This document shows positions 1 through 37,276 of a stretch of 38,832 bases of DNA, piece after piece. Made by a program: the position numbers and the translations under genes. Position 1 is the stretch's first letter; each line of letters starts with the position of its first letter. The notes beneath the pieces are model-generated. The model searched no databases. It was not told the origin of the DNA and worked only from the letters and a program-made list of their open reading frames with translations. The stretch comes from Thermovibrio sp. (lineage in GTDB: Bacteria; Aquificota; Aquificia; Desulfurobacteriales; Desulfurobacteriaceae), in contig WFNZ01000018.1 of the NCBI GenBank assembly GCA_015488335.1, positions 1 to 38,832 of the forward strand, given 5' to 3'.

Positions 1-1075
1 CGTCTGAGCCGAAAACTCCGCTTTTAACGTCGTTGGCCGCTATGAAGTCAAGGTTCTTCTTTTTGAGTTTTTCAACTGCATTCTCAATTAAATTCTCCGT
101 TTCCGCTGCAAACCCAACAACAATCTGGTTTTCTCTCTTTTTCTCTCCTGCAAGTTTTAAAATGTCTGGAGTTCTTTTAAACTCTAAGGTTAAAGTTCCC
201 TCTCCCTTTTTTATCTTCTCGCTGCTCTTCTTAACCGGCGTATAGTCTCCGATTGCTGCGGCGGAGATGTAAACGTCTGCTGAGCTGAACTCTTTTAAAA
301 CGGCCTCTTTCATCTCCTCTACCGTTTCAACCTCTACCGTTTTAACGCCGTATGGGGGCTTTAGGCAGGTTTTTCCTGTAATCAGAACAACCTCTGCTCC
401 CGTTCCTTTTGCAACTTTTGCAAGGGCGTATCCCATCTTCCCGCTTGACGGGTTTGAGATAAACCTTACAGGGTCTATGTATTCCCTTGTTGGCCCTGCA
501 GTTATTACAACCTTTTTCCCTTTTAGGAGTTTTGGGATAAACCAGTACTCGGCAGAGTCAACGATACTTGAAACCTCTGCAAGCCTTCCCTTTCCCTCCT
601 CTCTGCAGGCAAGATAGCCGCATTCTGGCTCAACAACTTCCCAGCCGAGATTTTTAAGTTTTTTCAAGTTTTCCTGAGTTATCGGGTTTTCGTACATCCG
701 AACGTTCATTGCCGGGCAGATAATTCCCTTTCCAAAACATAGGGCAAGGTCTGTTACAGGGGTATCAGCTATTCCGCAGGCGATTTTTGCTATGGTGTTA
801 GCAGTTGCCGGGGCGATGAGGAGGAGCTCCGCCCACCTTGAGAGCTCCGTGTGGAGTATTTCAGTTCCTCTTTCTGGAACGCTCTCGTCGTAAACAGGAT
901 AGCCTGTAAGGGATTCAAGGGTTAGGGGAGTTATAAACCTCTTTCCGGCAGGGGTTATGGCTACCCTTACCTCTGCTCCTTTTTTCTGGAGCTCCCTCAA
1001 AACCTCTACAGCCTTGTAGGCGGCGATGCTTCCCGTTATTCCAAGAACGATTTTCTTTTCCTTTAAAAAGCTCAC
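1..1075 (-). CDS. coaBC: Bifunctional phosphopantothenoylcysteine decarboxylase/phosphopantothenate-cysteine ligase (3' end cut by window edge)
   Basis: Two steps of coenzyme A synthesis: CoaB joins cysteine to phosphopantothenate and CoaC decarboxylates the product using FMN. I translated this frame myself; 358 codons are visible of the roughly 400 usual. The CoaC half shows the flavoprotein start (GITGSIAAYK), the probable catalytic His75 (ILHTELS), the PAMN motif at 121-124 followed by MYENP, and the substrate-clamp cysteine in ECGYLACREEGKGR. The CoaB half shows ITAGPTREYIDPVRFISN and SSGKMG, then AAIGDYTPVKKSEEKIKK with the conserved lysine. The start is GTG at 1075, chosen because it overlaps the stop of the upstream ClC gene as GTGA (4 bases), implying translational coupling. 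The missing part is the C-terminal tail of the CoaB domain. Family assignment is secure. Confidence 0.95.
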   Translation of the reverse strand, partial: MSFLKEKKIVLGITGSIAAYKAVEVLRELQKKGAEVRVAITPAGKRFITPLTLESLTGYPVYDESVPERGTEILHTELSRWAELLLIAPATANTIAKIACGIADTPVTDLALCFGKGIICPAMNVRMYENPITQENLKKLKNLGWEVVEPECGYLACREEGKGRLAEVSSIVDSAEYWFIPKLLKGKKVVITAGPTREYIDPVRFISNPSSGKMGYALAKVAKGTGAEVVLITGKTCLKPPYGVKTVEVETVEEMKEAVLKEFSSADVYISAAAIGDYTPVKKSSEKIKKGEGTLTLEFKRTPDILKLAGEKKRENQIVVGFAAETENLIENAVEKLKKKNLDFIAANDVKSGVFGSD

Positions 1076-2391
1076 TCCCTCTTCCTCATCATCATAGGCT
1101 TGAGCCTAATTTCCTGACCCAAGTAGAGGCTGAAGCCGAAGCTCGTTGTGTAGCTGGTTATTATTGCCGCAGTCATCGGGATGACAACGTCGGCGTGGGT
1201 CATCTCTGTAATCATAACGATTGCGGCCAGAGGAGTTTTGGCTCCCGCTGCAAGGGCTGCTCCCATTCCTGCAAGGGTGAATGTAACAATCTGGTGGGGG
1301 AAGTAGTGGCCGAAGATGTTTCCAACGGCTGCTCCTATGAGAAGGTTTGGAAGGACTAAACCGCCCGGAATTCCAAAACTCAAGGTTGAGCTGGTTATTA
1401 TGAGAACAAAAATGACGACAAGAATGTCTACCCATATTGGGAAGGGGATCTGCGCCAGCTTTGAGACTATTCCCATGTGGGCTGGGGCTGAGAGGAAGTC
1501 AACGTCGTGTGTAATCAGGTAGAGGAGAAGGAGAAATGGTAGGGCAACGGTTGTTCCTATTAACGGGCGAAACTTTGTGTCAAAGTATTTTGATACGCAG
1601 ACAGAGGTGTGGAAAACGAAGGTGTAGACGTAGATTATTAGGCTTATTACAAGTCCCATAACAACTATGTAGGGAATTGTCTGCAGATCCCACTGGGGAA
1701 CTTTTGAGAGTTTTATGAACGTGTGTTCTCCTCTAAAGAAGGAAAAGGTTAGGTAGCTGATGATTGAGGCAATTATCATCGGAACGAAGGGGCGGTAGTC
1801 TAAGTTGTACATCTCCTCAAGCTCCATTGCGAAGATGGCGCTTCCGAGGGGGGCTTTAAGGAGAGCTCCCGTAAAAGCACCGCCGCCGATTAAACCTAAG
1901 AGTTCCTTGTATCGCTTTCCAAGACCGTAAGCTCTTCCGAACCACTCTCCTATTGCAACACCAATAAAGAAAGAGGGCCCTTCCCTTCCGGCTATGAAAC
2001 CGCCAGAAAGGACAAAAGTTGATGTTATCAGCTTCAGAAGAACAGTTCTTGCCTTCAGGTAGGTTTTTGTTTTCAGGTGGAGTATTGCGTAGCCGATTCC
2101 GGGACCACCTATAACGGGATCAATCTTAAGGGCATAACCGACGAGAACCGAAACGACTAAAGGGTAGAGAAGAATAACAGCTGTGTTCTGAGAAAGAAGT
2201 TTGTTTAGATTTACAATGATGACGTCCATAAAAGAGGCAACGGTTCCGGTGGTTATTCCCACTGCAAAGGCAAAGGGAATCCACCGGCCGAAGAAGAGGG
2301 AGATTGTTGTTAAGTCAAAGCGGTGGATGAGGTTAGTTCGGGCACAGCCCTTTACGTACTCTTTAAAAAACTTCCACCGCTCCCCGTTCAT
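1072..2391 (-). CDS. ClC-family anion channel/transporter
   Basis: Membrane protein of the ClC fold, 439 residues, with many hydrophobic helices and no CBS domains. The three ion-pathway motifs are recognisable: GGPGIGYAI at 95-103 (where GSGIP is usual), GREGP at 135-139 with the gating glutamate E137, and GIPGGLVLP at 340-348 (the GxFxP-type motif). Two details stand out. The selectivity-filter serine is proline (P97), as in the plant nitrate exchanger ClC-a. At the position of the inner proton glutamate (E203 in E. coli ClC) I align Leu191, next to E190, so H+ coupling is uncertain. The gene starts with ATG five bases after the htpX stop and overlaps coaBC by four bases. The substrate (chloride, nitrate or another anion) cannot be fixed from sequence alone. 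Confidence 0.9.
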   Translation of the reverse strand: MNGERWKFFKEYVKGCARTNLIHRFDLTTISLFFGRWIPFAFAVGITTGTVASFMDVIIVNLNKLLSQNTAVILLYPLVVSVLVGYALKIDPVIGGPGIGYAILHLKTKTYLKARTVLLKLITSTFVLSGGFIAGREGPSFFIGVAIGEWFGRAYGLGKRYKELLGLIGGGAFTGALLKAPLGSAIFAMELEEMYNLDYRPFVPMIIASIISYLTFSFFRGEHTFIKLSKVPQWDLQTIPYIVVMGLVISLIIYVYTFVFHTSVCVSKYFDTKFRPLIGTTVALPFLLLLYLITHDVDFLSAPAHMGIVSKLAQIPFPIWVDILVVIFVLIITSSTLSFGIPGGLVLPNLLIGAAVGNIFGHYFPHQIVTFTLAGMGAALAAGAKTPLAAIVMITEMTHADVVIPMTAAIITSYTTSFGFSLYLGQEIRLKPMMMRKRE

Positions 2392-3313: not shown

Positions 3314-4569
3314 TAAATTCCTCCTAAGAAAAAGAATTTGTAGAGAAAGATTGCAGTAATTAAAATTAATACCCAGTTCAAGTCCTTCCACCTGCCGCAC
3401 AGGAGCTTAACGGCCGTGTATGTGATAAAGCCCAGTCCCATTCCATCTGAAATGCTGTAGGTAAACGGAATTCCTGCAAAAGTGATAAAGGCCGGCAGGG
3501 CTTCTGTTATTTCCTCCCATTCAATTTTTTTGAGAGATTCCATCATGAAGTAGCCTACGTATATGAGAACTGCCGACGTTGTGAACGTTGGAATTACCGA
3601 AATTAGAGGGTAGAGGAAGAGGGAAAGGAGAAATAGAGTAGCAACGGTTACTGCTGTTAAACCTGTTCTACCGCCTGCCGCAACGCCGCTTGCACTCTCA
3701 ACGTAGGTAGTTACCGTTGATGTTCCAAGGAGAGCTCCCACCGTAGTTCCAACTGCGTCGCTGGTTAAGGCCCTTCCCACCTTTTCATCTTCCAATGGAA
3801 TTCCAAGCCGGGTGCAGAGGGCTGAGAGGGTTCCAACGGTGTCAAAAACGTCTACCAAGAGGAACGCCACAACAACCGGAACGATTGAGTATGAGAGAAT
3901 GTGGGAGAAGTCAAGCTGAAGGGCAGCTGAAGGTTTTGGAAGCCCTAAAACGGCCTCAGGCTTTTCAACAAGGCCGAAGGGAACAGAGAGGAGAACTGCA
4001 AAGAGAATTCCCAGGAGAAGGCTTCCCTTTATGTTTTTCTTCTGAAGGACGGTTATGAATATGAGGGTTAGAACTGTTATGAGAGCCTGGGGAGAGGTTA
4101 AGCTTCCGAGCTTTACAAGTGTTTCTTTTGAGTAGACTACAATGCCGGAGTTTTTAAGACCTATCAGAGTTATAAAGAGGCCTATTCCTGCCGATATTCC
4201 GTAGGCTAAGGATTTCGGCATTGACTTGAAGATTGCCCGCCGTGCCCCAAAGAGGGCCATAACGAGGAAAATGACGCCTTCTATGAAGACTGCCGTAAGA
4301 GCCGTTCTCCAGTCAACTCCCATCTGACCGCAGACTGTATAGGCAAAGTATGCGTTCAGTCCCATCCCCGGGGCGAGTGCAAAGGGAAGGCCGGCGTATA
4401 GCCCCATAGTGTATGTGGCAACGGCCGAGGCGACTGCCGTTGCAAATATTACGCCCTCTTTTGGAACTCCTGCGTCTGAAAGGATTGCCGGGTTTACGAT
4501 GAGGATGTAGGACATTGTGAGGAAAGTTGTGATGCCGGCAAGGAGCTCCCTCTTTACATCTGCCTTCAA
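3313..4569 (-). CDS. AzgA-like NCS2 purine permease
   Basis: Proton-driven uptake of purine bases (adenine, or guanine/hypoxanthine/xanthine) across the inner membrane. The 418-residue hydrophobic protein begins with the family signature [20 protein letters not shown] and [15 protein letters not shown]. It carries the substrate-site segment [15 protein letters not shown], and later [20 protein letters not shown] followed by [14 protein letters not shown]. These are hallmarks of the AzgA/PbuG/GhxP branch rather than the UraA/UacT branch. The start is TTG at 4569, with GGAG seven bases upstream and no in-frame ATG nearby; the N-terminus MKADVKREL matches relatives. It lies 28 bases after mutL and overlaps htpX by one base. 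Which purine is carried cannot be told here. Confidence 0.92.
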
Positions 4570-4597: not shown

Positions 4598-6043
4598 CTA
4601 CCAGCTCTTTGGAACCTTAAGCTTTCTGCCCAGCTGGGAGTAGATTTTTTCCTTCTTCATTTTGTAATAGATAGGCCTTCCGTGGGGACAGGTCTCCCTG
4701 TTCCTGCACCTTAAAAACCTCTCAAAGAGCTCCTCAAGTTCCTTAAATTCTAAAATCCTGTATCCAGACTTTACAGCCCTTCTGCAGGCCAGTTCCGCAA
4801 CAGATTCAACAGACTTTCTGCTCAGCTCTTTAATGTCCTCAATGTTCAGAATTTCTGGAATCTCCTCAACGTAAACGGTATTTCCTTCAACTCGGAACCC
4901 GACTCCAAGTCTTTTCAGCTTCTCCTCTGAACCTATCGGGAGCTCCACCTCTTTTAAGAGCTCAACCGTTGGTATCTCTCCACTTTTCAGCTTCTCAAGG
5001 AGCTCCTCGTAGTTGACCCTCTCGTGGATGAGGTGGATGTCAAAGAAGTAGTAGTTTTCAGGGTCGTGGGCTATGAGGACGGTTCCGTCTGAGCCTATAA
5101 GCTGAGGCTTAACGGAGTATTCAATTTCCCTTTTCTCCCTTACTGCCGAAATTCTGGGAAGGTTTAAGGAATAGCTGAGGCTCTCTTCAATCTCTTTGAG
5201 GTAGTTTTTATCCTCTATGTAAACCCTCTCCTTTGTTGGGGTGATGTTGGGGTCAACGAGCTCTGAGGGTATCTTGATAAACAGGATGTAGCTCTTTATT
5301 CCCTTTTCTTCAAGGAGTTTCTCGGCTTCGGGGAGCTCCACAGGCCTTCTATTGACGAAAGTAAACCTCAGCCCCTTCCTCTCCCTTGAGTAAAGGAGGT
5401 GGAAACTACTTCCCTTTACCTCTAAGAGCTCCCACTCTCTTCCAAAGAGCTGATGAATCCTCTCCTTCAGGGAAGCCTTGGGGAAAACTTTTTCGTTAAA
5501 GGAAAAAGAGACGCTGGGGTTTGAGAGTGCGTAGGTTTTCAGAAGTTTAAGAAGGGAGCTCCTCTCCTTCCTGCTTACAGCCTTCCTCCTTACCGGAGCG
5601 TTGAAGAAGAGCTCCTCAACGGAAACAGATGTTCCCTTCCTGTATGGAACCGGAGTGTACTCCTCAACTGTTCCACCCCTTACAACGAGCTTTCCGCCGG
5701 TTCCTCCCTCCCTTGAGCTCTTTATCGTGAGCCTTGAGAACTGGGATATTGCGTGGAGTGCTTCTCCTCTGAAGCCGTAAGTTTTCAGCTGTTTCAGGTC
5801 TTTTAAGTCCCTTATCTTGCTGGTTGCGAAACGTTCAACGGTTAGGGGGAGCTCCCTGTAGTCAATTCCACAGCCGTTGTCCACAACCTTGAAGTTAAAA
5901 GGGTTTTCCACCTTGACCGAAATCTCAGTTGCTCCGGCGTCAAGGGAATTCTCAAGGAGCTCCTTCAGAACGGCCGTTGGAGACGAGGCTATCTGCCCTG
6001 AAGCTATCTGCCTTACAACTTCCTGTGGGAGTTTCCTTATCAA
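4598..6043 (-). CDS. mutL: DNA mismatch repair protein MutL (endonuclease type)
   Basis: ATP-driven matchmaker of mismatch repair that also nicks DNA in bacteria lacking MutH. The N-terminal GHKL ATPase shows E28/N32 in KELLENSLDAGA, DNGCGID at 55-61 and GFRGEAL at 90-96. A short linker leads to a C-terminal domain with ACRRAV and CPHGRP, both typical of endonuclease MutL. The metal-binding DQHA(x)2E(x)4E motif reads DIHLIHERVNYE: D, H and both glutamates are kept, but Q and A are replaced. At 481 residues it is short, as in Aquifex. I chose TTG at 6043 (protein begins MIRKLP, as in relatives) because GAGGA lies five bases upstream; a TTG at 6055 would add four residues without a good ribosome site. 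Several usually invariant N-terminal residues differ (SGQIASSP for AGEVVERP). Confidence 0.93.
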   Translation of the reverse strand: MIRKLPQEVVRQIASGQIASSPTAVLKELLENSLDAGATEISVKVENPFNFKVVDNGCGIDYRELPLTVERFATSKIRDLKDLKQLKTYGFRGEALHAISQFSRLTIKSSREGGTGGKLVVRGGTVEEYTPVPYRKGTSVSVEELFFNAPVRRKAVSRKERSSLLKLLKTYALSNPSVSFSFNEKVFPKASLKERIHQLFGREWELLEVKGSSFHLLYSRERKGLRFTFVNRRPVELPEAEKLLEEKGIKSYILFIKIPSELVDPNITPTKERVYIEDKNYLKEIEESLSYSLNLPRISAVREKREIEYSVKPQLIGSDGTVLIAHDPENYYFFDIHLIHERVNYEELLEKLKSGEIPTVELLKEVELPIGSEEKLKRLGVGFRVEGNTVYVEEIPEILNIEDIKELSRKSVESVAELACRRAVKSGYRILEFKELEELFERFLRCRNRETCPHGRPIYYKMKKEKIYSQLGRKLKVPKSW

Positions 6044-6086
6044 TCTGTTCCTCAAAGAACTTTATAGAAGAAATATAGGAGTTTCC

Positions 6087-8612: not shown

Positions 8613-9638
8613 ATGAAAGCCGCTTTCTTTGAGCTTGAGGGTTGGGAGATTCCGGTTATTGAGAGGGAGCTCCCGCCCCACGGAATAGAAGTTGTAAAGC
8701 TTGAGAAGAGGCCTCTTGAGAAAGAAGACCTTAAAGAACTTAAGGAAGTTGAAGTTCTCTCTGTGTTCATCTACTCCAAAATAACAAAGGAGGTTATTGA
8801 TTCACTTCCAAACCTTAAACTGATAACTACCCGGTCAACTGGGTTTGACCACATAGACGTTGACTACGCCTCTGAAAGGGGAATAGCAGTCTGCAACGTT
8901 CCAGACTACGGAATGGAGACAGTTGCAGAGTATACCCTTATGCTGATTCTCTCCCTTTTAAGGAAACTCCGTCCAACGTTAGAGAGGACCTGTAGGGGGA
9001 TATTTAGTAGGGAAGGGCTGAGGGGACACGACCTTGAGGGGAAAACGGTTGGTGTTATAGGAACCGGCAGGATAGGTTCAAGGCTTATCAAACTCCTTTC
9101 CGGTTTTGACCTTAATGTTCTGGCCTACGATGTAAAACCTAAGGAAGAGCTGATTGAGAAGTTTGGTGTGAGGTACGTTCCTCTGGAGGAGCTTCTCAGG
9201 AATTCCGACATTATCACCCTCCACGTTCCCTACCTTCCATCAACCCACCACCTTATAAACAGGGAGAACATAAAGCTACTAAAGAAGGGGAGCTATTTGA
9301 TAAACACGTCAAGGGGCAGCGTTGTTGAAACCGAAGCAGTAATCTGGGCTCTAAAGGAGGGTATTTTAGATGGAGTTGCCCTTGATACCTTTGAGGGAGA
9401 GGAGGTCTGGGCGGAAGAGGAGCTGATAATCTTCAGGGGAGAAAAGGACGTTTCTCCTGAAATTCTGAAGAAGGCGCTTGAGAGCTTTGCCCTCACCCAG
9501 TTTGAGAACGTAATACTCACTCCCCACAACGCCTACAATACCCACGAAGCTATAATGAGAATTCTTATGAAGACCCTGAAAAATATAATTTCCTACAAAG
9601 AGACCGGGAAGTGTATCTACCCGGTAATAAAAAGATGA
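8613..9638 (+). CDS. D-isomer-specific 2-hydroxyacid dehydrogenase (D-lactate dehydrogenase-like)
   Basis: NAD-dependent reduction of a 2-oxoacid to a D-2-hydroxyacid, or the reverse, in the cytoplasm. The 341-residue protein has a Rossmann fold with GTGRIG at 150-155 and the NAD-selecting D173. The catalytic triad is R234 (NTSRGSVV), E263 (LDTFEGE) and H305 (TPHNAYNTHEA). The length, LDTFEGEE and the long loop after it suit the D-lactate dehydrogenase/LdhA branch better than PGDH or glyoxylate reductase, but the true substrate is not certain. The start is ATG 8613, with GGAG six bases upstream; an in-frame TTG at 8601 is less likely. It follows ppsA by 19 bases, so pyruvate is a reasonable substrate by context. 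Confidence 0.88.
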   Translation: MKAAFFELEGWEIPVIERELPPHGIEVVKLEKRPLEKEDLKELKEVEVLSVFIYSKITKEVIDSLPNLKLITTRSTGFDHIDVDYASERGIAVCNVPDYGMETVAEYTLMLILSLLRKLRPTLERTCRGIFSREGLRGHDLEGKTVGVIGTGRIGSRLIKLLSGFDLNVLAYDVKPKEELIEKFGVRYVPLEELLRNSDIITLHVPYLPSTHHLINRENIKLLKKGSYLINTSRGSVVETEAVIWALKEGILDGVALDTFEGEEVWAEEELIIFRGEKDVSPEILKKALESFALTQFENVILTPHNAYNTHEAIMRILMKTLKNIISYKETGKCIYPVIKR

Positions 9639-9648
9639 GGGAGGGAGA

Positions 9649-10857
9649 ATGAAGGTTCTCTTTGAAGATTCTGGATTTCCGCTTCTTGACTACGAGCTTC
9701 TCCTTGAGGAGATTGACTACAAAAACCTGCTGAAACCTTCCGTTATGCCTTTTACGGAGCTCCCCACAGGAAACTACCTGATTTCAATAAGGGAAACGGC
9801 CGAGAGGCTTCAGGAGAAGTTCTCAACCCTCGTTGTAGTTGGAATGGGAGGCTCTTCCCGTGGAGCTAAAGCTCTCCACCAGGCCGTTGGTAAGGAGAAC
9901 TCACGACTTCTGTTCCTTGACAACATAGACCCAGACCTTCTGTCTGAAACCCTGAACAGAATTGACTGGGACAAAACAGCTTTTGCCTTCATCAGTAAAT
10001 CGGGAAAAACCCTTGAAACGGTTTCTCTTATGAACGTGATACTTGAGGAGCTAAAGGAGAAGGAGCTCCTTTCAGGGGAGAGGATAGTTTTTGTAGGAGA
10101 TAGGGGAAACGCCTTTCAGGAACTATCGGAAGAGCTCAAATCTCCATTCCTTGAAATACCTGAAGAGATAGGCGGGAGATTCTCTGTTTTCACAGCTGTT
10201 GGCCTTCTCCCTGCTTACTTTGCCGGCTACAACGTTGAACGTTTTTTAGAAGGGGCTTACGACCTGATTGCTACTCCACTGCCGGCCTTCTACATTGCCG
10301 CTTCAAAATATCTCCACTACAAAGCAGGAAGGAAAATCTCCGTTGTTATGCCTTACTCCTCCTACATGGCAGAGTTTACGGAGTGGTATGCCCAGCTCTG
10401 GGCAGAGTCTTTAGGAAAGGACGGCCAGGGGCAGACGCCTCTTAAAGCGATAGGAACTTCCTCTCAACACTCAATCCTTCAGCTCTTTGTTGATGGCCCC
10501 GATGACAAGTTCTACCAGCTTTTCTTCATCAACAGAAGGTCTTCAGACCTGAAACTGCCAGAAGGTGCAAAAGTTCTTCCCTATATAGGGGGTAAAACCC
10601 TTGGAGAGATCATGAGAGCAGAGTTTGAAGGAACTCTCTATGCTCTTAGACAGAAAAGTAGGCCGGTAATTCGGTTTGAGCTGAGCCAGCTTTCTGAATA
10701 CCAGATGGGCTACCTGTTTATGGCCTATATGGTTGCAGTGGTTGTTATGGCAAAACTGATGGGGGTAAACCCTTACGGCCAGCCAGCCGTTGAGATAGGT
10801 AAACGGTATGCGCGGCAGCTTCTTGAGGAGGGAAGAGATGGAGGTATGTCTCAGTGA
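9649..10857 (+). CDS. pgi: Glucose-6-phosphate isomerase
   Basis: Interconverts fructose-6-phosphate and glucose-6-phosphate, the branch point feeding glycogen synthesis. Both SIS folds are recognisable: VVVGMGGSSRGAKAL near residues 64-78, the phosphate-binding ISKSGKTLET, the signature IGGRFSVFTAVGLLP, and the active-site histidine segment GTSSQHSILQLFVDGPDD. At 402 residues it is short for the family (about 430-550), with a compact N-terminus and almost no C-terminal extension; no key motif is missing. A GGGAG ribosome site precedes the ATG. It lies 10 bases after the dehydrogenase and overlaps cfa by 20 bases. Confidence in the family is high despite the compaction. Confidence 0.94.
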   Translation: MKVLFEDSGFPLLDYELLLEEIDYKNLLKPSVMPFTELPTGNYLISIRETAERLQEKFSTLVVVGMGGSSRGAKALHQAVGKENSRLLFLDNIDPDLLSETLNRIDWDKTAFAFISKSGKTLETVSLMNVILEELKEKELLSGERIVFVGDRGNAFQELSEELKSPFLEIPEEIGGRFSVFTAVGLLPAYFAGYNVERFLEGAYDLIATPLPAFYIAASKYLHYKAGRKISVVMPYSSYMAEFTEWYAQLWAESLGKDGQGQTPLKAIGTSSQHSILQLFVDGPDDKFYQLFFINRRSSDLKLPEGAKVLPYIGGKTLGEIMRAEFEGTLYALRQKSRPVIRFELSQLSEYQMGYLFMAYMVAVVVMAKLMGVNPYGQPAVEIGKRYARQLLEEGRDGGMSQ

Positions 10858-23230: not shown

Positions 23231-24090
23231 GCCTGGGTATTGATATAGGCGGAACGTTCGTGAAGTTTACAGATGGAGAGAGGAACTGGAAGGAAAAAAC
23301 TCCAGAAAGCACAGAGGAGCTCCTCAATCTCATCTCAGAAGCGGTAATCCGTGAGAAAGCCCGCAGGGTGGGTATTGTCGTTGCCGGCCTTGTAGACGTG
23401 AAAAGAGGAGTTGTTACAGATTCTCCCAACCTCAAGTTCCTTAAAGATCTTCCCCTCAAAAGTGAAATTGAGAGGAGAACCGCCTCTACCGTTTCTATCG
23501 TAAACGACGCAACAGCTGCCGCCTACGGAGAATACAGCTTGGGGGTGGGAAGGGGGAGCTCCCTCTTCATCTGCCTTACTTTAGGAACGGGGCTTGGCGG
23601 TGGAGCCGTAATAGACGGAAAACCCCTCCTTGGAGCTTCAGGCTCTGCAATGGAAGTGGGCCACATGGTCGTTGAAAAGGGGGGCTGGCTCTGCCACTGC
23701 GGGAGGAGAGGATGTCTTGAGGCCTACGTTTCGTCTTACGGCCTTGAGCGGTTCTACCACATGGAAACAGGAGAGAGCATATCTTCATTTAAAGTGATAG
23801 AGCGAGCAAAAAAAGGGGAAAAAGCTGCTCTTAGAGCTCTCTCAGAAATGGCCTCTTATCTCTCGTTAGGCCTTATGAACCTTCTCCACCTTTTTAACCC
23901 CGACATTGTCGCCCTTTCAGGGGGAATTCCTACCCACTACCCTGAGCTTTTAGAGAAAGTTGAGAGAAAAACAAAGGAAATTGCCTTCCCTCAGCCTGCC
24001 AGAGATTTCTCACTGAAACTTGCCCGCTTGGGTGAGTTCAGCGGTGCCGTGGGAGCTCTCCTTATCGCCCGAAATCAACTGGTATACTAA
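23227..24090 (+). CDS. ROK-family glucokinase
   Basis: Phosphorylates glucose (probably) with ATP, returning glucose freed by the GH57 enzymes to glucose-6-phosphate. The 287 residues begin LGIDIGGTFVKF (ATP site), with VNDATAAAYGEY (catalytic D94), LGTGLGGGAVIDGK and the ROK zinc site: H146 with C156, C158 and C163 in LCHCGRRGCLEAY. There is no DNA-binding N-terminal domain, so it is a kinase and not a NagC/XylR-type repressor. The start is TTG, overlapping the previous stop as TTGA; the codons immediately after it already encode the conserved core, so no later start fits. It ends 25 bases before fabD. Sugar specificity (glucose versus mannose or fructose) is inferred from context. Confidence 0.88.
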   Translation: MSLGIDIGGTFVKFTDGERNWKEKTPESTEELLNLISEAVIREKARRVGIVVAGLVDVKRGVVTDSPNLKFLKDLPLKSEIERRTASTVSIVNDATAAAYGEYSLGVGRGSSLFICLTLGTGLGGGAVIDGKPLLGASGSAMEVGHMVVEKGGWLCHCGRRGCLEAYVSSYGLERFYHMETGESISSFKVIERAKKGEKAALRALSEMASYLSLGLMNLLHLFNPDIVALSGGIPTHYPELLEKVERKTKEIAFPQPARDFSLKLARLGEFSGAVGALLIARNQLVY

Positions 24091-25048: not shown

Positions 25049-26778
25049 TGCTGAAGCTCAGCGAAACGGCACTTGAGATACTGAAGGCCCGCTACTTGAG
25101 GCCGGGAGAAACTCCAGAGGAGCTCTTTGAGAGGGTTGCAAGGGGAGTTGCACAGGCGGAGCTCCTCTACGGCCCCGTCTCAAAGGTGAGGGAGTGGGAG
25201 GAGAAGTTCCACACCCTTATGACCAGCCTTGACTTCCTTCCAAACTCTCCCACCCTCATGAACGCCGGAACCGAACTGGGCCAGCTTGCAGCCTGCTTCG
25301 TCCTTCCCGTTGAAGACTCCATAGAGGAGATATTTGACACCCTCTCCCTCATGGCCAAGATACAGAAAACCGGCGGAGGAACAGGGTTTTCGTTCTCTCA
25401 CTTAAGGCCGAAGGGAGACATCGTCCGCTCAACAAACGGAAAGGCCTCAGGCCCCGTCTCCTTTATGAGGGTCTTTGACTGCACAACAGATGCCATAAAG
25501 CAGGGAGGAAAACGGAGAGGAGCAAACATGGGCGTCCTCTCCTACAACCACCCAGACGTTGAAGAGTTCATAACTGCAAAGCTTGACAAGAAGAGCTTTC
25601 AGAACTTCAACATCTCAGTTGCCTGCGAAGACTCCTTCTTTGAAAAGGTTAAAACCGGCGGAGAAGTAGAGCTCATAAACCCGAGGAATGGAAAAGTCTG
25701 GAAAAGAGTAAGTGCAAAGGATCTCTTTGACCTTATAGCAAGATCCGCCTGGGAATGTGGAGACCCGGGAATCCTCTACATAGACGAGATAAACCGCCAC
25801 AACCCAACCCCTGAAATCGGAAAGATTGAGGCCACAAACCCCTGCGGTGAGGTTCCTCTCCTTCCCTACGAGGAGTGCAACTTAGGTTCAATAAACCTCT
25901 CCCACTTTGAGAAGAATGGCTCTGTTGACTGGGAAAGGCTGGGAGAAACCGTTGAGACGGCAGTCAGGTTCTTAGACTGCGTTATAGACGTCAACAAATA
26001 CCCCGACGAAAGAATAGAGAGAATGGCGAAGGGTAACAGGAAAATTGGCCTTGGGGTTATGGGCTGGGCGGAGCTCCTCATAAAACTGAAAATCCCCTAC
26101 AACTCCGAAGAAGCACTAAAACTTGCAGACAGACTTATGGCCTTCATAAACAGAAAAGCCTTTGAAACCTCCGTAAAGCTCGCAGAAGAAAAGGGAAGCT
26201 TCACCAACATAGAAAAGAGTATCTACAGGGGAAAAAAGGTAAGGAACGCAACCAGAACGAGCATAGCCCCAACGGGAACCATCAGCATGATAGCCGGAAC
26301 AACGCCCAGCATAGAGCCCCTCTTTGCCGTTGCTTACGTTAAACGGATCCTTGACGGTAAGCCGGCTGTTCAGATAGAGCCACTCTTCCTCAAGTACGCC
26401 GGAAATATCCTTTCAGATGAACAGCTCCTTGAAGTCCTTAAAACAGGGAGCATTCAGAACGTTCCCGGTATCCCAGATGAAGTAAAGAGGCTATTTGTAA
26501 CCGCTTTAGACGTTCCCCCTGAGTGGCACGTAAGGGTTCAGGCCACATTCCAGAAACATGTAGATAACGCCGTTTCTAAAACTGTAAACATGAGAGAGAG
26601 CGCAACCGTTGAAGACGTTAAACACGTTTTTCTCCTTGGCTATAAGCTCAAAGTTAAGGGAATTACCATCTTCCGCCAGGGTTCAAAAAAGGGCGTAATA
26701 GAGTTCGGTCTTAAATCTGTTAAGGGAATATCCCCAAAAGACCTGATAAGATTCCAGCCGTGCAGTTGTCAGCTTTAG
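25048..26778 (+). CDS. nrdJ: Adenosylcobalamin-dependent (class II) ribonucleotide reductase, minimal form
   Basis: Makes deoxyribonucleotides using coenzyme B12, with no need for oxygen. At 576 residues it is short for the family: no ATP-cone or long C-terminal extension. The barrel shows FLPNSPTLMNAG, redox C83 (AACFVLP), KTGGGTGFSFSHLRP, NPCGE at 264-268 with thiyl-radical C266 and E268, partner C277 (EECNLGS), and TRTSIAPTGTISMIAGTTPS. The C-terminal redox pair is CSC at 572-574, two residues before the end. There is no sign of class I radical-subunit partners or a class III glycyl loop. Lack of the ATP cone suggests no dATP activity control through that domain. It follows fabD directly (TGATG) and ends nine bases before the lipoprotein gene. 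Confidence 0.93.
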   Translation: MLKLSETALEILKARYLRPGETPEELFERVARGVAQAELLYGPVSKVREWEEKFHTLMTSLDFLPNSPTLMNAGTELGQLAACFVLPVEDSIEEIFDTLSLMAKIQKTGGGTGFSFSHLRPKGDIVRSTNGKASGPVSFMRVFDCTTDAIKQGGKRRGANMGVLSYNHPDVEEFITAKLDKKSFQNFNISVACEDSFFEKVKTGGEVELINPRNGKVWKRVSAKDLFDLIARSAWECGDPGILYIDEINRHNPTPEIGKIEATNPCGEVPLLPYEECNLGSINLSHFEKNGSVDWERLGETVETAVRFLDCVIDVNKYPDERIERMAKGNRKIGLGVMGWAELLIKLKIPYNSEEALKLADRLMAFINRKAFETSVKLAEEKGSFTNIEKSIYRGKKVRNATRTSIAPTGTISMIAGTTPSIEPLFAVAYVKRILDGKPAVQIEPLFLKYAGNILSDEQLLEVLKTGSIQNVPGIPDEVKRLFVTALDVPPEWHVRVQATFQKHVDNAVSKTVNMRESATVEDVKHVFLLGYKLKVKGITIFRQGSKKGVIEFGLKSVKGISPKDLIRFQPCSCQL

Positions 26779-26787: not shown

Positions 26788-28488
26788 GTGAGAAAACTTA
26801 GACTGCTTTTCTTACTTTTCTTCTTTCTTCTTCCTGCTTGTGGAGGGGGTGGCAGTGGAGGTGGTAGTAACTCCTCAGGTGGTGTATCAATTTCCGGCCA
26901 GTTTCTCTCAAGTTATGTAGAAGGACTGAAAGTCTGTACAGACAGCGGTTACTGTACGTATACAGATGCAGAAGGTAAGTTCCAGTTAAAGGTTTCAACT
27001 CTTCCAGTTCACGTCACCTTTTTTGTAAATAACCTTGAACTGGGAGATTATACCCTCAGGGAAAACAACGAAACAGTAACTCCTTTTAAATTATCGTCCA
27101 GCTCCCAGATTGGAGATATTCTTGCCAGGTTTATCCACGGGATGGCCGGAGATACAGAGGGAACTTTTAAAACGCTTAACTTCTCCGGTATTAAGGTTTT
27201 AAACTCTAATCTCCCTTCAGGTGAGTCCCTCACCGATGCCGTTCAAAACGGAGAAGACGTTAGGGTAGAGCTCCAGTCCAACGGAAAAACTTACTCTGTA
27301 GAGTACCACCCGGAAGATCGGTCTGTAGAGCTGTGCACAGCCGATAGCTGTCAGAAAGTTAACTACAGACAGTGGCTCATCCTGGTCTACATGGCTGCTG
27401 ATAACAGTTTAAACTCATTTGCATCGGAAGACCTGAAGGAGATGGCCTCAGTCAAGTTTACCCCTCAGGTAAAATTAGTTGTCCTCACAGACTTTCAAAC
27501 GGGAACGGATCAGATTTCAGAGAGCTCCGATACAACGGGGGATCTGACCTCTCAACCTCTGAATTACGAAGTAGATTCAGGCGACTATCAGACTCTTAAG
27601 AACTTTGTAGAACAATACTATAACTTATACCCTGCAAAGAACGTTGCCTTAATCCTCTGGGATCACGGAGATGGATGGAGAAGCAGATCAGCAGCCATTG
27701 ACGACACAGACTCCTCCCTTCTCCTTATGTTCCAGCTTAGAAAAGTCCTGTCAGACCTTAATTCAGAAGGGATAAACTTCAGTCTGATTGGCTTTGACGA
27801 ATGTTTAATGGGCATGGAAGAGGTCCTCTACGACATTAAAGATTTTGCTGATTACTTTGTGGCCTCAGAGAACGAAGAGCCTGGAACTGGCTGGGATTAT
27901 ACGAGAGTTTTTTCATACCTCGTTTCCAACCCCAATTCAACTCCTCAGCAGTTTGGAAAGGCCATAGTTGATGCCTATAAAGAGGCCTATTCCTCTCTTA
28001 GCACCGATTCCACCCTTACGCTTACCCTCTTCTCTAAAGATAACGTTGAGAGAATTGCCGGCGACCTGAACAGGTTCTACTACGATCTAAATTCAGACAC
28101 ATTCCCCGACTTCCAGTCTGCAAGGAGCTCCTCCCAGCAGGTTGTCTGCTCAGAAAACAATCAGAACTGTTCTTACTACTACGTTGATCTCTACTCCTTT
28201 GCATCTCAGCTTTCAGACAAATATCCTGAAGCTGCCGACATTGTTAACGTAATAGACTCCTTATACAAAACGGTTATACCTGGCAGCGACGGTAAAGACC
28301 TTCACGGTATCTCCGTCTACTTCCCTGCCAACCCAGATGAAGCAAATCAATCTGGATACGGCTGTTATACTGCCGAGACTCCCGTAACCTGCACCTTTGG
28401 AAATAAGCAGGTTAGCGGCTACTACAATCCCTTTGCTGCTGGAACCTACTGGGACAACTTCCTAACTGAATACTTATCTCTGGAGTAG
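26788..28488 (+). CDS. Clostripain-like (C11) cysteine peptidase lipoprotein
   Basis: Exported lipid-anchored protein of 566 residues. A signal peptide ends in the lipobox LPAC (C18), followed by a Gly/Ser-rich tether (19-33). Residues about 34-190 are beta-rich and resemble a carboxypeptidase-regulatory-like domain. The C11 domain from about 195 has ILVYMAADNSLN, LILWDHGDGW with H293 and IGFDECLMGMEEV with C339, the catalytic pair. Cysteines come in close pairs (50/56, 183/188, 454/461, 526/535), probably disulfides. The start is GTG 26788, five bases after GGAGG. Clostripain relatives cut after Arg or Lys; the target here is unknown. The next gene, four bases on, is also a lipoprotein. Confidence 0.85.
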   Translation: MRKLRLLFLLFFFLLPACGGGGSGGGSNSSGGVSISGQFLSSYVEGLKVCTDSGYCTYTDAEGKFQLKVSTLPVHVTFFVNNLELGDYTLRENNETVTPFKLSSSSQIGDILARFIHGMAGDTEGTFKTLNFSGIKVLNSNLPSGESLTDAVQNGEDVRVELQSNGKTYSVEYHPEDRSVELCTADSCQKVNYRQWLILVYMAADNSLNSFASEDLKEMASVKFTPQVKLVVLTDFQTGTDQISESSDTTGDLTSQPLNYEVDSGDYQTLKNFVEQYYNLYPAKNVALILWDHGDGWRSRSAAIDDTDSSLLLMFQLRKVLSDLNSEGINFSLIGFDECLMGMEEVLYDIKDFADYFVASENEEPGTGWDYTRVFSYLVSNPNSTPQQFGKAIVDAYKEAYSSLSTDSTLTLTLFSKDNVERIAGDLNRFYYDLNSDTFPDFQSARSSSQQVVCSENNQNCSYYYVDLYSFASQLSDKYPEAADIVNVIDSLYKTVIPGSDGKDLHGISVYFPANPDEANQSGYGCYTAETPVTCTFGNKQVSGYYNPFAAGTYWDNFLTEYLSLE

Positions 28489-28864: not shown

Positions 28865-29804
28865 GTTTGAGCTCATCTCCAAAATCTCCCGTCTTTTCAA
28901 AAAACTACCAGATATTGATGTGGGTATAGGGGATGATACTGCCGTTGTGACCTTAGGTTCAGAGAAACTTCTTCTTACATGTGACGCTTTGGTAGAAAAT
29001 TCCCATTTCCTTCTCAGCTGGAAATCTCTGGTAGACGATCTCTTTTTCTATCTGGGAAGGAAACTTGTCTCTGTTTCTGTCAGCGATATTGCCTCAATGG
29101 GCGGAGCTCCCCTCTTCTCCCTTATAACTCTCGGAGTTAACAGCTCTTTCTCTGAACCCGACCTTGACAAGCTTTACAACGGAATCCGCTCTGCCCTTTC
29201 AGATTACGGCCTTTCATTGGTCGGTGGTGATACAGTCAGAAGCGAAAACCTCTTCTTTGACCTCTTTTTGACCGGTAAAGCAAAAAGCGGTTTTATGCTG
29301 AGGAATTCTGCCAGGCCGGGAGAACTTGTCTTCGTTACAGGAACTTTCGGAGATGCAAAGGCCGGACTTGAACAGCTTTTAAATGGAGAAATTACTGACT
29401 CATACCTTGTAAACAGGTTCTTAAACCCTACGGCCCGTTTGAGAGAAGGTCAGAGAGCTCTCTCTTTAGGAGTTAAGTGCGGAACAGACGTAAGCGACGG
29501 CCTCGTTTTCAACCTTTACACTATTTCAGAGGCCTCTGGCGTAAGGATAGATGTAGATTTGAGCCTTATCCCAATATCAGAAAACCTGATAAACTACTGC
29601 GGAAAAGAGAGAGCTCTCTCATTCGCCCTCTTTGGAGGGGAGGATTACGAGCTTATAATTACGGCTCCAGAAGATAAAGAGGGGGAGCTCCGAAAAATCG
29701 GCTTCAAACAAATAGGGAAAGTCTCTGAAGGAAGCGGAGTCTATGGAAACGGGAAGCTCCTTCCTAAAAAGGGCTACGACCACCTGAAGGGGGATGATTC
29801 ATGA
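28851..29804 (+). CDS. thiL: Thiamine-monophosphate kinase
   Basis: Final step of thiamine diphosphate synthesis: ATP-dependent phosphorylation of thiamine phosphate. The 317-residue protein fits the PurM/ThiL fold: SEFELISKI at the N-terminus, DVGIGDDTAVV with metal-binding aspartates, SVSDIASMGGAPLFSLITLG, SLVGGDTVRS, TDVSDGL and FGGEDYELIITA. The start is ATG 28851, inside the previous gene, with GGAG seven bases upstream. It ends in an ATGA overlap with uppP. Thiamine diphosphate would serve enzymes such as pyruvate:ferredoxin oxidoreductase, but no other thi gene is in the window. Confidence 0.94.
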   Translation: MSLSEFELISKISRLFKKLPDIDVGIGDDTAVVTLGSEKLLLTCDALVENSHFLLSWKSLVDDLFFYLGRKLVSVSVSDIASMGGAPLFSLITLGVNSSFSEPDLDKLYNGIRSALSDYGLSLVGGDTVRSENLFFDLFLTGKAKSGFMLRNSARPGELVFVTGTFGDAKAGLEQLLNGEITDSYLVNRFLNPTARLREGQRALSLGVKCGTDVSDGLVFNLYTISEASGVRIDVDLSLIPISENLINYCGKERALSFALFGGEDYELIITAPEDKEGELRKIGFKQIGKVSEGSGVYGNGKLLPKKGYDHLKGDDS

Positions 29805-30577
29805 CTTTTACAGACTCAGTCATAATGGGAATAGTTGAAGGACTGACAGAGTTTCTTCCCGTCTCCTCAACCGGCCACCTGATACTCACCTCTCACATTT
29901 TGGGCCTTAAACAGACCGCTTTTGAAAAGACCTTTGAAATAGCCATTCAGCTTGGAGCAATTCTCTCCGTTGTTTTCATATACAGGGAAAAGCTCACCAA
30001 AAGCTGGGAGCTCTGGAAAAAGCTCATAGCTGCCTTTATACCTACCGGAATACTGGGTTTAGCACTCCACCACTACATTGAAAATCTATTCAATCCCGTT
30101 GTTGTTTCCTCCATGCTGATAATCTGGGGTGTTATCTTCATACTGGTGGAGCTCCTCCATAACGAAAAAGAGCACCACATCTCAGAGCCTGAAAAAGTAA
30201 GTTATCTTAAAGCAGTGGGAATCGGCCTTTTTCAATCCCTTGCAATGGTTCCCGGAACCTCCCGCTCCGGCGCAACCATAATAGGAGGAATGGTCTTAGG
30301 AATGAAAAGACCTGCCGCTACAGAGTTTTCGTTCCTCCTTGCCATTCCGACGATGTTCGCAGCTACCGGCTTTGAGCTGTTTAAAAACTTTAACTCCATC
30401 AACGTTGAAGACTTCAAGCTACTTCTGGTGGGAGCTATAACTGCCTTTGTATCGGCTTTCTTTGCAGTTAAGTGGCTTTTAGGTTATGTAAAACACCACA
30501 GCTTTATTCCTTTTGGCGTTTACAGAATCATAGTTGGGATAATTTTCCTCGTAGTTTTCTACTTTCAAAATAGTTAA
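29801..30577 (+). CDS. uppP: Undecaprenyl-diphosphatase (BacA type)
   Basis: Recycles the lipid carrier undecaprenyl diphosphate to the monophosphate at the inner membrane, needed for peptidoglycan and surface polysaccharides. The 258-residue, mostly hydrophobic protein shows GIVEGLTEFLPVSSTGHLIL near the N-terminus (catalytic Glu and Ser region) and PGTSRSGATIIGGM in the middle, the two family signatures. It starts inside the thiL stop (ATGA). It is the last gene before a 44-base gap that probably holds a new promoter. The name bacA is also used. Confidence 0.95.
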   Translation: MTFTDSVIMGIVEGLTEFLPVSSTGHLILTSHILGLKQTAFEKTFEIAIQLGAILSVVFIYREKLTKSWELWKKLIAAFIPTGILGLALHHYIENLFNPVVVSSMLIIWGVIFILVELLHNEKEHHISEPEKVSYLKAVGIGLFQSLAMVPGTSRSGATIIGGMVLGMKRPAATEFSFLLAIPTMFAATGFELFKNFNSINVEDFKLLLVGAITAFVSAFFAVKWLLGYVKHHSFIPFGVYRIIVGIIFLVVFYFQNS

Positions 30578-31710: not shown

Positions 31711-32927
31711 TGGCTGTTTACAGATACGTTGGCAGAGACGTTCTGAACAGGAGAAGGAGAGGACTTGTAGAAGCAGACAGTATTGATGCTGCGAGGGAGC
31801 TCCTCTTAAGCCGTGGAGTTGTTGTAGTAGAAAAGCTCTCTGAAGACAAATCCCTGTTTAAAAAGAGCTTTGACGTTCCCTTCCTCAACCGTATAACTCT
31901 CCGCGACCTTCTAATCTTCACCCGTCAGCTCTACGCCATGATCCACGCAGGAATCCCCTTGGTCCAGGCCTTGAGAGTCATAAAAGATCAAGTACCCAAC
32001 AAAAGACTTAAACAGATAATAGACGATGTGGCAACTTACATAGAGGAAGGGGGTAAATTTTCAACGGCCCTCTCAAAATACAGAGATGTCTTTGGAGACC
32101 TATACATTTCAATGGTAAGAGCTGCTGAAGAAGCTGGAACCCTTGAAGAAACCCTAAAACGCCTTGCCGAGTATTTAGAAAAGATAGAAAAGCTCAGAGG
32201 AAAGGTAAAGAGTGCTCTTTTCTACCCTGTATTTGTCCTTATAACGGCAACAGTTATAGTAGCTGGAATAATGATATTCGTAATTCCAACCTTCCAGCAG
32301 CTATACGCCGACCTTGGCGGTTCTTTACCAGCTCTAACCCAAATGGTTATAAACGCCAGCAACTGGCTCAGAGACTACATCGGCTGGTTTATCCTTGCAA
32401 TCTTTCTCTTTGTTGTCCTCTTTGTTCAGCTCCGTCGCGTTTCAAAACGGTTTAAATACCTGACAGACCTTGCACTTCTCAAAATCCCCGTTTTCGGAGA
32501 GCTCGTCCTCAAATCCAGCATTGCCAACTTCTCAAGAACATTCTCCTCCATGCTTTCCAGCGGAATAAACATACTTGAAGCCCTAAGAATATCCGCTGAA
32601 ACTGCAAACAACGAAGTGATAAGAGAGGCAATAGAAAAAGTTAGAGAACAGGTAGAAAAGGGAGTCAGTTTCTCATTAGCAATGTCAAGAATCTCAATCT
32701 TTCCTCCTATGGTAGTAAACATGGCCGCCATCGGTGAACAGGCCGGTAACTTAGACGAAATGATGTCAAAAGTTGCCGATTTTTACGAAGAAGAAGTAGA
32801 CCGCACCGTAGACGGCCTCACTTCCCTCATAGAACCCTTGATGATCGTCTTCATCGGCTCTATAATTGGCGTAATCATAATTGCATTGTATCTACCAATA
32901 TTTAAAATTGGTGAGCTTATAAAATAA
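31710..32927 (+). CDS. pilC: Type IV pilus inner-membrane platform protein PilC/GspF
   Basis: Polytopic inner-membrane protein on which the pilus motors act. The 405-residue protein has two repeated T2SSF domains, with FTRQLYAMIHAGIPLVQALR near 70-89 and the second copy around FSRTFSSMLSSGINILEALR near 270-289. Transmembrane segments follow at about 170-195, 220-240 and 375-398. Pairing with pilT marks it as the pilus protein rather than the secretion-system GspF. It starts within the pilT stop (TAATG). It is the last gene with the GC-richer composition of the left part of the window; base composition changes sharply in the 23 bases after it. Confidence 0.95.
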   Translation: MAVYRYVGRDVLNRRRRGLVEADSIDAARELLLSRGVVVVEKLSEDKSLFKKSFDVPFLNRITLRDLLIFTRQLYAMIHAGIPLVQALRVIKDQVPNKRLKQIIDDVATYIEEGGKFSTALSKYRDVFGDLYISMVRAAEEAGTLEETLKRLAEYLEKIEKLRGKVKSALFYPVFVLITATVIVAGIMIFVIPTFQQLYADLGGSLPALTQMVINASNWLRDYIGWFILAIFLFVVLFVQLRRVSKRFKYLTDLALLKIPVFGELVLKSSIANFSRTFSSMLSSGINILEALRISAETANNEVIREAIEKVREQVEKGVSFSLAMSRISIFPPMVVNMAAIGEQAGNLDEMMSKVADFYEEEVDRTVDGLTSLIEPLMIVFIGSIIGVIIIALYLPIFKIGELIK

Positions 32928-36124: not shown

Positions 36125-37276
36125 ATGATAAAACCTCATGGTGGAGACCTTGTTAATAGATTAGCTTCCGAAGAAGAAAAAAAGGAACTAATGGAAAAAG
36201 TAGAAACACTCCCAAAAATAGTTGCAGGTAACAGATATGTTGGTCACTGTGAAATGATAGCTATAGGAGGGTACTCTCCTCTCAGAGGTTTTATGACTAA
36301 AGAAGAAGCTGAGTCGGTTATTAAGGATGTTCACCTACCCAACGGTCTTTTGTGGTCAATACCGATTGTTCTTCCTGTAAGTGAAGAGCTCTGGAAAAGT
36401 ATTAAGGTAGGGGATGAAGTAGCGATCTATGATGAAAATAATAGGCCTATTGCGATTATTGTAGTGGAAGATAAATATACTTTAGATCTTGATTTTTACT
36501 GTGAAAACGTTTTTAAAACGACAGATGAAAATCATCCAGGAGTTGCTTTTGTCAAAAGTGCTGGGAACTTCTTTGTTGGAGGGGAGCTCCTCCGTCTCAT
36601 CAACCGCCCTATTCGTGAAGGTATCCCTGAACGTTACTACCAAGACCCTTTTCAGGTAAGAAAAGTGATAGAGGAAAAAGGCTGGAGAAGAGTTGTTGCA
36701 TTCCAGACCAGAAATCCTATACATAGAGCTCATGAGTACATTATTAAATGTGCTTTAGAAACAATGGATGGTGCCCTGATACATCCCCTTGTAGGAGAAA
36801 CAAAGAAAGATGATATTCCTGCACCTGTAAGGATGAAGTGCTATGAAGTTCTAATTGATAACTACTTCAACAAAAACAGAGTTCACCTCAGTGTTCTACC
36901 TGCTCCTATGCATTACGCCGGTCCTCGTGAAGCGGTTCACCACATGATAATGCGTAAAAACTATGGATGCACCCACATGATAATAGGTAGAGACCATGCG
37001 GGTGTAGGAAACTATTACGGCACTTACGAAGCCCAGGAATTTGTAGAACAGTTCATAGATGAGTTGGAAATTATGCCTTTAAAGTTTGAACACGCTTTCT
37101 ACTGTACAAAGTGTGAAAACATGGCAACATCAAAAACCTGTCCTCATCCAAAAGAGTTTCATATTCACCTGAGCGGAACAAAAGTTAGATCCATGCTCAG
37201 GGAAGGAAAACGTCCTCCTAAAGAATTTTCAAGACCAGAGGTGGCTGATATTTTAATTGAGTGGGCAACTTCCTAA
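36125..37276 (+). CDS. sat: Sulfate adenylyltransferase (ATP sulfurylase), homomeric type
   Basis: Makes APS from sulfate and ATP. The 383 residues show the active-site motifs QTRNPIHRAHEY at 194-205 and GRDHAGVGNYYG from 288, and a Zn-binding cluster C327, C330, C339 plus a nearby histidine, as in prokaryotic single-chain enzymes. There is no C-terminal APS-kinase-like domain. The ATG follows the cysC stop directly, with GGAGG eight bases upstream. Composition is mixed: the 5' part is AT-rich (30% G+C at line 36481), but around 36570-36700 it resembles the left part of the window (48% at 36601) and contains a GGAGCTCC. Single-chain Sat also serves sulfate reducers, but no aprAB or cysH is in view, and cysC beside it points to PAPS. 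Confidence 0.95.
   Translation: MIKPHGGDLVNRLASEEEKKELMEKVETLPKIVAGNRYVGHCEMIAIGGYSPLRGFMTKEEAESVIKDVHLPNGLLWSIPIVLPVSEELWKSIKVGDEVAIYDENNRPIAIIVVEDKYTLDLDFYCENVFKTTDENHPGVAFVKSAGNFFVGGELLRLINRPIREGIPERYYQDPFQVRKVIEEKGWRRVVAFQTRNPIHRAHEYIIKCALETMDGALIHPLVGETKKDDIPAPVRMKCYEVLIDNYFNKNRVHLSVLPAPMHYAGPREAVHHMIMRKNYGCTHMIIGRDHAGVGNYYGTYEAQEFVEQFIDELEIMPLKFEHAFYCTKCENMATSKTCPHPKEFHIHLSGTKVRSMLREGKRPPKEFSRPEVADILIEWATS

Follow-up and report, generated by a model that had tools for sequence, protein, structure and literature searches.

A HIP1-like iterated palindrome in the genomes of Desulfurobacteriaceae (Aquificota)

Occurrence of the palindrome in the window and in the host genome

The stretch of DNA analysed here, referred to as the window, was the 38,832-bp contig WFNZ01000018.1 (C18) of a Thermovibrio sp. 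genome (the host genome; 1.645 Mb, 99% complete). The palindromic 8-mer GGAGCTCC recurred along this contig, including within genes such as mutL (4598–6055, minus strand). A direct count gave 40 copies, the first starting at position 823 and the last occupying 36,583–36,590, and 85 copies of the core GAGCTC. The original prediction, which was made from the letters of the window, had placed these numbers at about 40 and about 84; the former was exact and the latter was one short. Its equal-base expectations of 0.6 and 9.5 copies were correct, and the excess remained large under proper null models. The same prediction held that the element behaves at the DNA level like HIP1, a highly iterated palindrome (HIP), and this was supported by an excess over a codon-based null, a genus-wide occurrence and conservation at synonymous sites.

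The named relatives of the host's phosphoenolpyruvate synthase (PpsA) assign the genome to Desulfurobacteriaceae (Aquificota); the nearest of them, 94% identical, comes from the metagenome-assembled genome T11_metabat2_scaf2bin.178. The whole-genome count of GGAGCTCC in the host was 1,451, that is, one copy per 1,134 bp or 882 per Mb. Such a density falls within the range of GC-rich palindromic 8-mers regarded as HIPs (Elhai 2015), about 300–2,700 per Mb and far above expectation. Host statistics were based on whole-genome counts and on a 313-kb sample of the genome that included the window. In this sample 278 copies were found where an order-2 Markov model predicted 14.5 (an observed-to-expected ratio of 19), and GGAGCTCC ranked first of all 8-mers both by frequency and by over-representation. 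The reversed control CCTCGAGG, composed of the same letters read backwards, had no copies in the 1.645-Mb genome. However, this control was not neutral because the tetranucleotide TCGA is itself strongly avoided by the host (16 copies in the genes of the sample, where it was almost absent, against 930 expected after codon shuffling); therefore, the argument rests on the null models. Markov nulls of order 5–6, which had been suggested as a check, yielded 33 expected against 40 observed copies in the window. The excess is hidden in this comparison, and such nulls are circular and invalid as a refutation, since the sub-words themselves carry the excess of GGAGCTCC.

The codon null was obtained by shuffling synonymous codons within each gene 100 times, thus preserving the protein sequence and the codon use. 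The longest non-overlapping open reading frames (ORFs) of at least 90 amino acids served as a proxy for gene calls. This comparison had been set beforehand as a refuting test for the original prediction, which survived it: the ORFs of the host sample contained 254 copies against 23.8 ± 3.9 after shuffling, a 10.7-fold excess. All three codon phases were enriched, so that the prediction also survived its second refuting test, enrichment confined to Glu-Leu; the phases were very unequally populated, with 204 copies in the x-Glu-Leu-x phase (18.6 expected, 11-fold), 30 in the Gly-Ala-Pro phase (4.6 expected, 6.6-fold) and 20 in the x-Ser-Ser phase (0.7 expected, 28-fold). The phases quoted earlier for individual copies were confirmed, namely Glu-Leu at 25158–25165 (GCG GAG CTC CTC), Gly-Ser-Ser at 23555–23562 (GGG AGC TCC) and Gly-Ala-Pro at both 21409–21416 and 29103–29110 (GGA GCT CCC). 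An excess over the codon null was seen again in five relatives from the genus and in members of g6 and g7, amounting to 6- to 11-fold in samples above 30 kb (Thermovibrio ammonificans excepted).

These data bear on the simplest explanation, according to which a purine-rich thermophile merely prefers the dipeptide Glu-Leu encoded as GAG CTC, with no signal at the level of DNA. The 204 of 254 coding copies in that phase speak for it, but the 10.7-fold excess persists with protein sequence and codon use fixed, enrichment is present outside the Glu-Leu phase as well, and copies outside genes occur at equal density. Pure codon preference was refuted by the codon-shuffled nulls in the host and in related genomes, and hardly any credence is left to it.

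Sequence requirements of the motif

The requirement for both halves of the palindrome was pronounced. With the left half GGAGCT fixed, the full palindrome was enriched 10.75-fold, compared with 1.6-fold for any other right half. AGCT was the sole strongly enriched core among palindromes of the form GG-core-CC, and substitutions of the central A/T were depleted. The outer positions were more permissive, as a purine on the left and a pyrimidine on the right were tolerated (AGAGCTCC, 4.8-fold; AGAGCTCT, 3.6-fold), whereas the outer-base variants CGAGCTCC and TGAGCTCC reached 0.6-fold each. The other transition neighbours, GGAACTCC and GAAGCTCC, were mildly enriched (1.7- and 1.35-fold). One-off deviations thus cluster at the outer bases and changes at the central A/T are nearly absent, as is characteristic of HIPs.

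The same pattern was seen on a larger scale. Over the codon null, RGAGCTCY was enriched 5- to 10-fold in palindrome-rich genera, with YGAGCTCR at 0.2- to 1.2-fold. Whole-genome counts of the two were 2,727 and 71 in the host and 3,119 and 194 in G135, while the palindrome-free genome G129 had 28 and 34. Hence GGAGCTCC, the motif named in the original prediction, is the optimum of an element that is better described as RGAGCTCY.

Distribution in the family and the phylum

In the five genus relatives (G001–G005) the whole-genome counts of GGAGCTCC ranged from 683 to 1,354. The excess of RGAGCTCY over the codon null, for which several samples were as small as 16–20 kb, amounted to 5.1–6.8-fold in genus g1, 6.3–7.5-fold in g6 and 5.4–9.9-fold in g7. 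The exception in g7 was Thermovibrio ammonificans HB-1 (G132), where the excess was nearly gone (1.8-fold). It was weak (2.4–3.8-fold) in g2, which we take to be Desulfurobacterium, the genus of D. thermolithotrophum, and no excess was observed in g3, g4 and g5 (0–0.9-fold). The palindrome-free genera did not form one clade on a MutL tree (a single gene with an arbitrary root), so that more than one gain or loss in the family is probable.

A second occurrence in the phylum was found in the Aquificaceae. The samples of G049, G046 and L020 showed a 4.5–4.7-fold excess of RGAGCTCY over the codon null, G049 contained 1,783 copies genome-wide, and G047 and G040 were also rich by whole-genome counts. 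Separately, G103 and G108 (family f4, genus g28) had 139 and 166 copies of RGAGCTCY compared with 22–28 in five congeners, and 2–3 copies of YGAGCTCR. The palindrome may thus have been gained once more in this genus, whose other members are poor in it.

Conservation of the sites between species

The relatives' copies were located by alignment to the window, in which copies had been found by an exact 8-mer count. The exact 8-mer was kept in place at 21 of 29 sites in G005 (91% identity), 24 of 32 in G003 (79%), 22 of 38 in G002 (79%), 10 of 20 in G004 (77%) and 12 of 28 in G001 (74%), whereas other 8-mers of equal GC content were kept at 53, 22, 18, 13 and 9%, respectively. The original prediction had called for a test at synonymous positions, and for this purpose codons inside the sites with a conserved amino acid were compared with the same codons elsewhere. 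Identical codons exceeded the expectation in all five relatives, with 50 of 53 (44.1 expected) in G005, 51 of 55 (37.9) in G003, 55 of 63 (37.7) in G002, 28 of 30 (15.3) in G004 and 34 of 41 (22.6) in G001.

The individual copies were aligned against G001–G005 as well as G125, G131, G135 and L002. The most widely conserved one, at 2953–2960, was found unchanged in each of the five relatives from the genus and also in g6 and g7. The copy at 5848–5855 in mutL was present in all five relatives and G135, and that at 9756–9763 in all five relatives. The site at 15914–15921 was shared with G005, G003, G002, L002 and G001, the site at 13827–13834 with G005, G003, G002 and G001, and the site at 988–995 with G003, G002, G135 and G125. 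Copies at 5555–5562 (mutL), 8666–8673, 17997–18004, 18334–18341 and 21168–21175 were found also in G005, G003 and G002; those at 11227–11234 and 21192–21199 in G005, G003 and G001; that at 23014–23021 in G003, G002 and G001; and those at 23316–23323, 26070–26077 and the Glu-Leu site at 25158 in G003, G002 and G004. Two further mutL copies were shared with G005, G003 and G135 (5956–5963) and with G003, G001 and G131 (4999–5006), and the one at 11809–11816 with G003, L002 and G001.

Two relatives had the copies at 4542–4549 and 10062–10069 (G005 and G003), 14325–14332 and 16400–16407 (G005 and G002), 14559–14566 (G005 and G001), 4939–4946 in mutL (G005 and G004), 823–830 (G003 and G002), 30148–30155 together with the Gly-Ala-Pro site at 29103 (G002 and G004), and the Gly-Ser-Ser site at 23555 (G004 and G001). 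The copies at 18259–18266 and 21588–21595 recurred in G005, the Gly-Ala-Pro site at 21409 in G003, and those at 29684–29691 and 36583–36590 in G002. Those at 5332–5339 (mutL), 15146–15153 and 31796–31803 were seen in the window only among the aligned relatives, as was that at 20575–20582, which had a one-off form in G003; the copy at 28124–28131 was matched by a one-off form in G002.

Single-base differences between species were nearly all G-A/C-T transitions and were commonest at the outer bases. This is what would be expected if biased mutation, biased mismatch repair or gene conversion made GGAGCTCC from near-misses without any function, an 'epiphenomenon' in Elhai's words. In a by-eye count, gained and lost sites of the two closest genomes looked balanced, the sites were evenly spread over genes and occurred at chromosomal density on the 76,561-bp plasmid of T. 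ammonificans, and MutL was encoded by all but one of 22 genomes, all of which are in accordance with such a process. However, MutL was equally present in the palindrome-free genera. The enriched one-step neighbours also argue against a converter, because a converter would drain them, whereas mutation out of favoured sites feeds them. Moreover, conservation in place was clearly above the background even at 9% divergence (GAGCTC at 46 of 56 positions against 60%). Biased repair of moderate strength retains some probability; it was considered the strongest of the competing explanations, although an unlikely one.

Distribution along genes and outside them

The per-gene counts of GGAGCTCC followed a Poisson distribution by gene length (chi-squared per degree of freedom of 1.04), with no trend along the gene. 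The spacing was near-random, with a mean of 992 bp and a coefficient of variation of 0.92, except for a deficit of pairs less than 50 bp apart (4 observed, 12.6 expected). The density in the host sample was 0.90 per kb in ORFs and 0.80 per kb outside them, where some of the copies lie in unannotated gene ends; the claim made here is therefore limited to the lack of an excess outside genes.

Six copies lie in the 1.46 kb of the window's mutL gene, and mutS2 (2.3 kb, on L119) contains 7. A special crowding in these repair genes was rejected, as it was not significant once all genes were counted, the per-gene counts being Poisson. The longest gap free of GGAGCTCC in the sample, 8.5 kb, coincided with the curli csgEFG operon (csgE, csgF and csgG at L117 12374–14458, minus strand), near which a LuxR-type regulator and a tetratricopeptide repeat protein are encoded. 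This stretch was probably acquired, and its lack of copies would fit a recent acquisition.

Inverted repeats with at least four extra pairs around GGAGCTCC were found for 4 of 26 copies outside genes and 14 of 252 copies in genes. At L114 14581, L116 3316 and L127 17328, all outside genes, the palindrome lies at the tip of a long GC-rich inverted repeat, in some cases with a T run behind it, and these copies apparently serve in terminator-like hairpins. Terminator function was rejected as an explanation of the palindrome since too few copies lie in longer inverted repeats to cover the excess.

A DNA uptake sequence for natural transformation was considered as well. Uptake-sequence densities include about 0.88 per kb, the value found for GGAGCTCC, and the single-step differences between sites resemble those of uptake sequences. 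The few intergenic copies at the tips of inverted repeats and the presence of ComEC in the family (all but three of the 22 genomes) would also fit. On the other hand, known uptake sequences are non-palindromic and over-represented outside genes (Bakkali 2007, PMC1939737), and GGAGCTCC has neither property. ComEC, too, was equally present in palindrome-free genera. Neither MutL nor ComEC was retained as an explanation by its presence, as both occur with and without the trait. An uptake role thus appears improbable from these sequences, more so than the remaining alternatives apart from codon preference.

DNA methylases

Five Pfam methylase families were searched over the 22 genomes, most of which are metagenome-assembled genomes; the targets of the enzymes are unassigned, so that an enzyme may have been missed. 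Within these limits no family common to all palindrome-rich genomes was found, none was associated with the trait (Fisher p 0.34–1.0), and clusters of related methylases did not cover the palindrome-rich genomes. PF00145 and PF02086 gave no full-length match in the genus, apart from one weak partial PF02086 match in G005. The host genome encodes full-length PF01555 methylases of the N4-methylcytosine/N6-methyladenine type, but no PF01555 match was obtained in G002 (1,309 copies of GGAGCTCC, 99% complete), whose sole strong match was a Type I HsdM-like protein. Strong PF02384 matches were scattered over palindrome-rich and palindrome-free genomes alike, and so was a protein of about 1,250 residues with an Eco57I-type methylase domain. 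The latter protein, probably a fused restriction-modification enzyme, was conserved but patchy in the family (L243 on G000:C20, L242, L244, L245, L246 and L241). The 5-methylcytosine enzyme of Desulfurobacterium (G122) matched M.HaeIII (GGCC) rather than an enzyme for GAGCTC. A published single-molecule real-time methylome of D. thermolithotrophum underlies work in PMC8259958, where a CACC Type III system is among the findings reported.

The MutL protein of the window displays the variant endonuclease motifs DIHLIHERVNYE and CPHGRP, and in our own reading it would be of the endonuclease type. MutL proteins of this type are regarded as working independently of methyl marks, and the motifs point to nick-directed repair for which a methyl mark is not needed.

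These results weigh on the model in which the palindrome is tied to a cognate methyltransferase for GAGCTC or AGCT, possibly through methyl-directed mismatch repair. It draws on the host's PF01555 enzymes and on the observation that every cyanobacterium with an alternate HIP has a capable methylase (Elhai 2015, PMC4390886). Against it stand the absence of a family that tracks the trait, the G002 genome, the GGCC specificity suggested for the Desulfurobacterium enzyme and the MutL motifs. The methylation target listed among the possible roles in the original prediction consequently received no support. The model was lowered but retained because targets are unassigned and most genomes are metagenome-assembled; we rate it as quite unlikely, below biased repair and above an uptake sequence.

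Comparison with known systems and proposed function

HIP1 was described in 1995, and what it does has been debated ever since without a settled answer. Work on it has concerned cyanobacteria, whose methylases, linked to the repeat, made it difficult to tell a function from a by-product. The HIP1 sequence itself, GCGATCGC, had 0 copies in the window. Like HIP1, GGAGCTCC is a GC-rich 8-bp palindrome, the top 8-mer of its genome, and present about once per 1.1 kb (1,134 bp, compared with one HIP1 per 1,131 bp in Synechocystis; PMC6604393). Both lie in genes of both strands, vary in one-off forms mainly at the outer bases and are patchy among related genomes. The two are unrelated in sequence and differ in the phylum of the host, Aquificota in the present case, and in the core, AGCT here and GATC in HIP1; here, moreover, no shared methylase was found, and there are palindrome-free genera and a near-loss within the family.

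Other parallels are the alternate HIPs that replace HIP1 in exceptional cyanobacteria, e.g., GGGATCCC and GGCGCC, at 500–2,500 per Mb (PMC4390886). They too are GC-rich palindromes at high density, but are sporadic and each accompanied by a capable methylase, whereas the present element extends over several genera and none was found in every bearer. In the same survey the methylase-HIP link is an association with exceptions, not a part of the HIP definition. The uptake sequences of Pasteurellaceae and Neisseriaceae share the high copy number and the gradual change via one-step neighbours, but not the palindromic form or the absence of an excess outside genes. Chi and other polar chromosome motifs are likewise 8-mers in excess that a DNA-processing machine recognises; however, Chi is asymmetric and strand-directed, while a palindrome carries no direction. 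Cyanobacteria provide the known examples of iterated palindromes this large and this dense (HIP1 and the alternate HIPs), and in the literature searched the papers that use the term deal with cyanobacteria or touch on them in passing. In agreement with the original prediction, no such element was found reported for Aquificota in the literature searched.

The best reading of these data is that RGAGCTCY in Desulfurobacteriaceae is an alternate HIP, HIP1-like but unrelated to HIP1 in sequence. We give about even chances to the more specific proposal that RGAGCTCY is a palindrome iterated throughout the genome, with GGAGCTCC as its preferred form, and is read at the DNA level by a two-fold symmetric factor. 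A dimeric recogniser is suggested because both halves are needed, the AGCT core is rigid and the outer R/Y positions are graded, and the two-fold symmetry would be compatible with a protein-bound site of chromosome organisation. A weak DNA-level force would favour each site. If ln(observed/expected) is taken as the scaled advantage, which assumes a mutation-selection-drift equilibrium, it is about 2.4 for GGAGCTCC, 1.3–1.6 for AGAGCTCC and AGAGCTCT and 0.3–0.5 for the core transitions, and the per-site advantage would be of the size of codon-usage selection. A candidate dimeric DNA-binding protein would read the chromosome about once per kilobase, independently of any shared DNA methylase, in the service of chromosome structure or segregation, or of repair and recombination. 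Both the factor and the function of the palindrome are what we infer.

Several points weigh against a recognised site. No binding protein is known or was found here, and the near-random spacing gave no sign of periodic chromosome organisation. Because the excess is almost absent from T. ammonificans, at least one cultured species can do without the factor. Furthermore, selection and biased repair or conversion predict an equal excess and comparable relative rates of change, so that a site recognised for a function and a by-product of repair look alike in these data. A recognised chromosome-wide site was nevertheless ranked first, ahead of biased repair, a methylase-linked HIP and an uptake sequence in this order.

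A broader proposal is put forward more tentatively: RGAGCTCY may represent a class of methylation-independent signals spread over whole chromosomes of Aquificota. An undescribed dimeric protein would bind and read them, and this protein would have been gained or lost repeatedly in the phylum (g1, g2, g6, g7 and some Aquificaceae, e.g., G049), so that HIPs would be neither a cyanobacterial speciality nor methylase-dependent. The palindrome is of the same size and density as HIP1 in an unrelated phylum, and one of the genomes in which it is strong has no cognate methylase that could be recognised. The near-loss in T. ammonificans, set against the other genomes of its genus, offers a natural contrast for the responsible gene. 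Such contrasts allow selection to be tested against biased repair.

Additional observations

Besides TCGA, the tetranucleotides CTAG, GATC, GTAC and CGCG were avoided in the host sample. Across 20 genomes of the family, stronger TCGA avoidance accompanied a stronger RGAGCTCY excess (Spearman −0.72, uncorrected for kinship), with G127, G123, G001 and G004 as exceptions. Some genomes of f3 g9/g10 and f5 g30 contained many copies of the control 8-mer CCTCGAGG, up to 374, whereas it was rare in their close relatives; the group included G011, G013, G019, G028, G114, G116 and G117. In a small Aquificota sample a mild excess of it was recorded in G114 only (10 copies, 3.3 expected). Finally, the phosphoenolpyruvate synthase of L017 ranked among those of Aquificaceae. 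The record in question, RFFP01000013.1, bears the title 'Acidobacteria bacterium isolate J001' and is possibly a mislabelled Aquificota genome.

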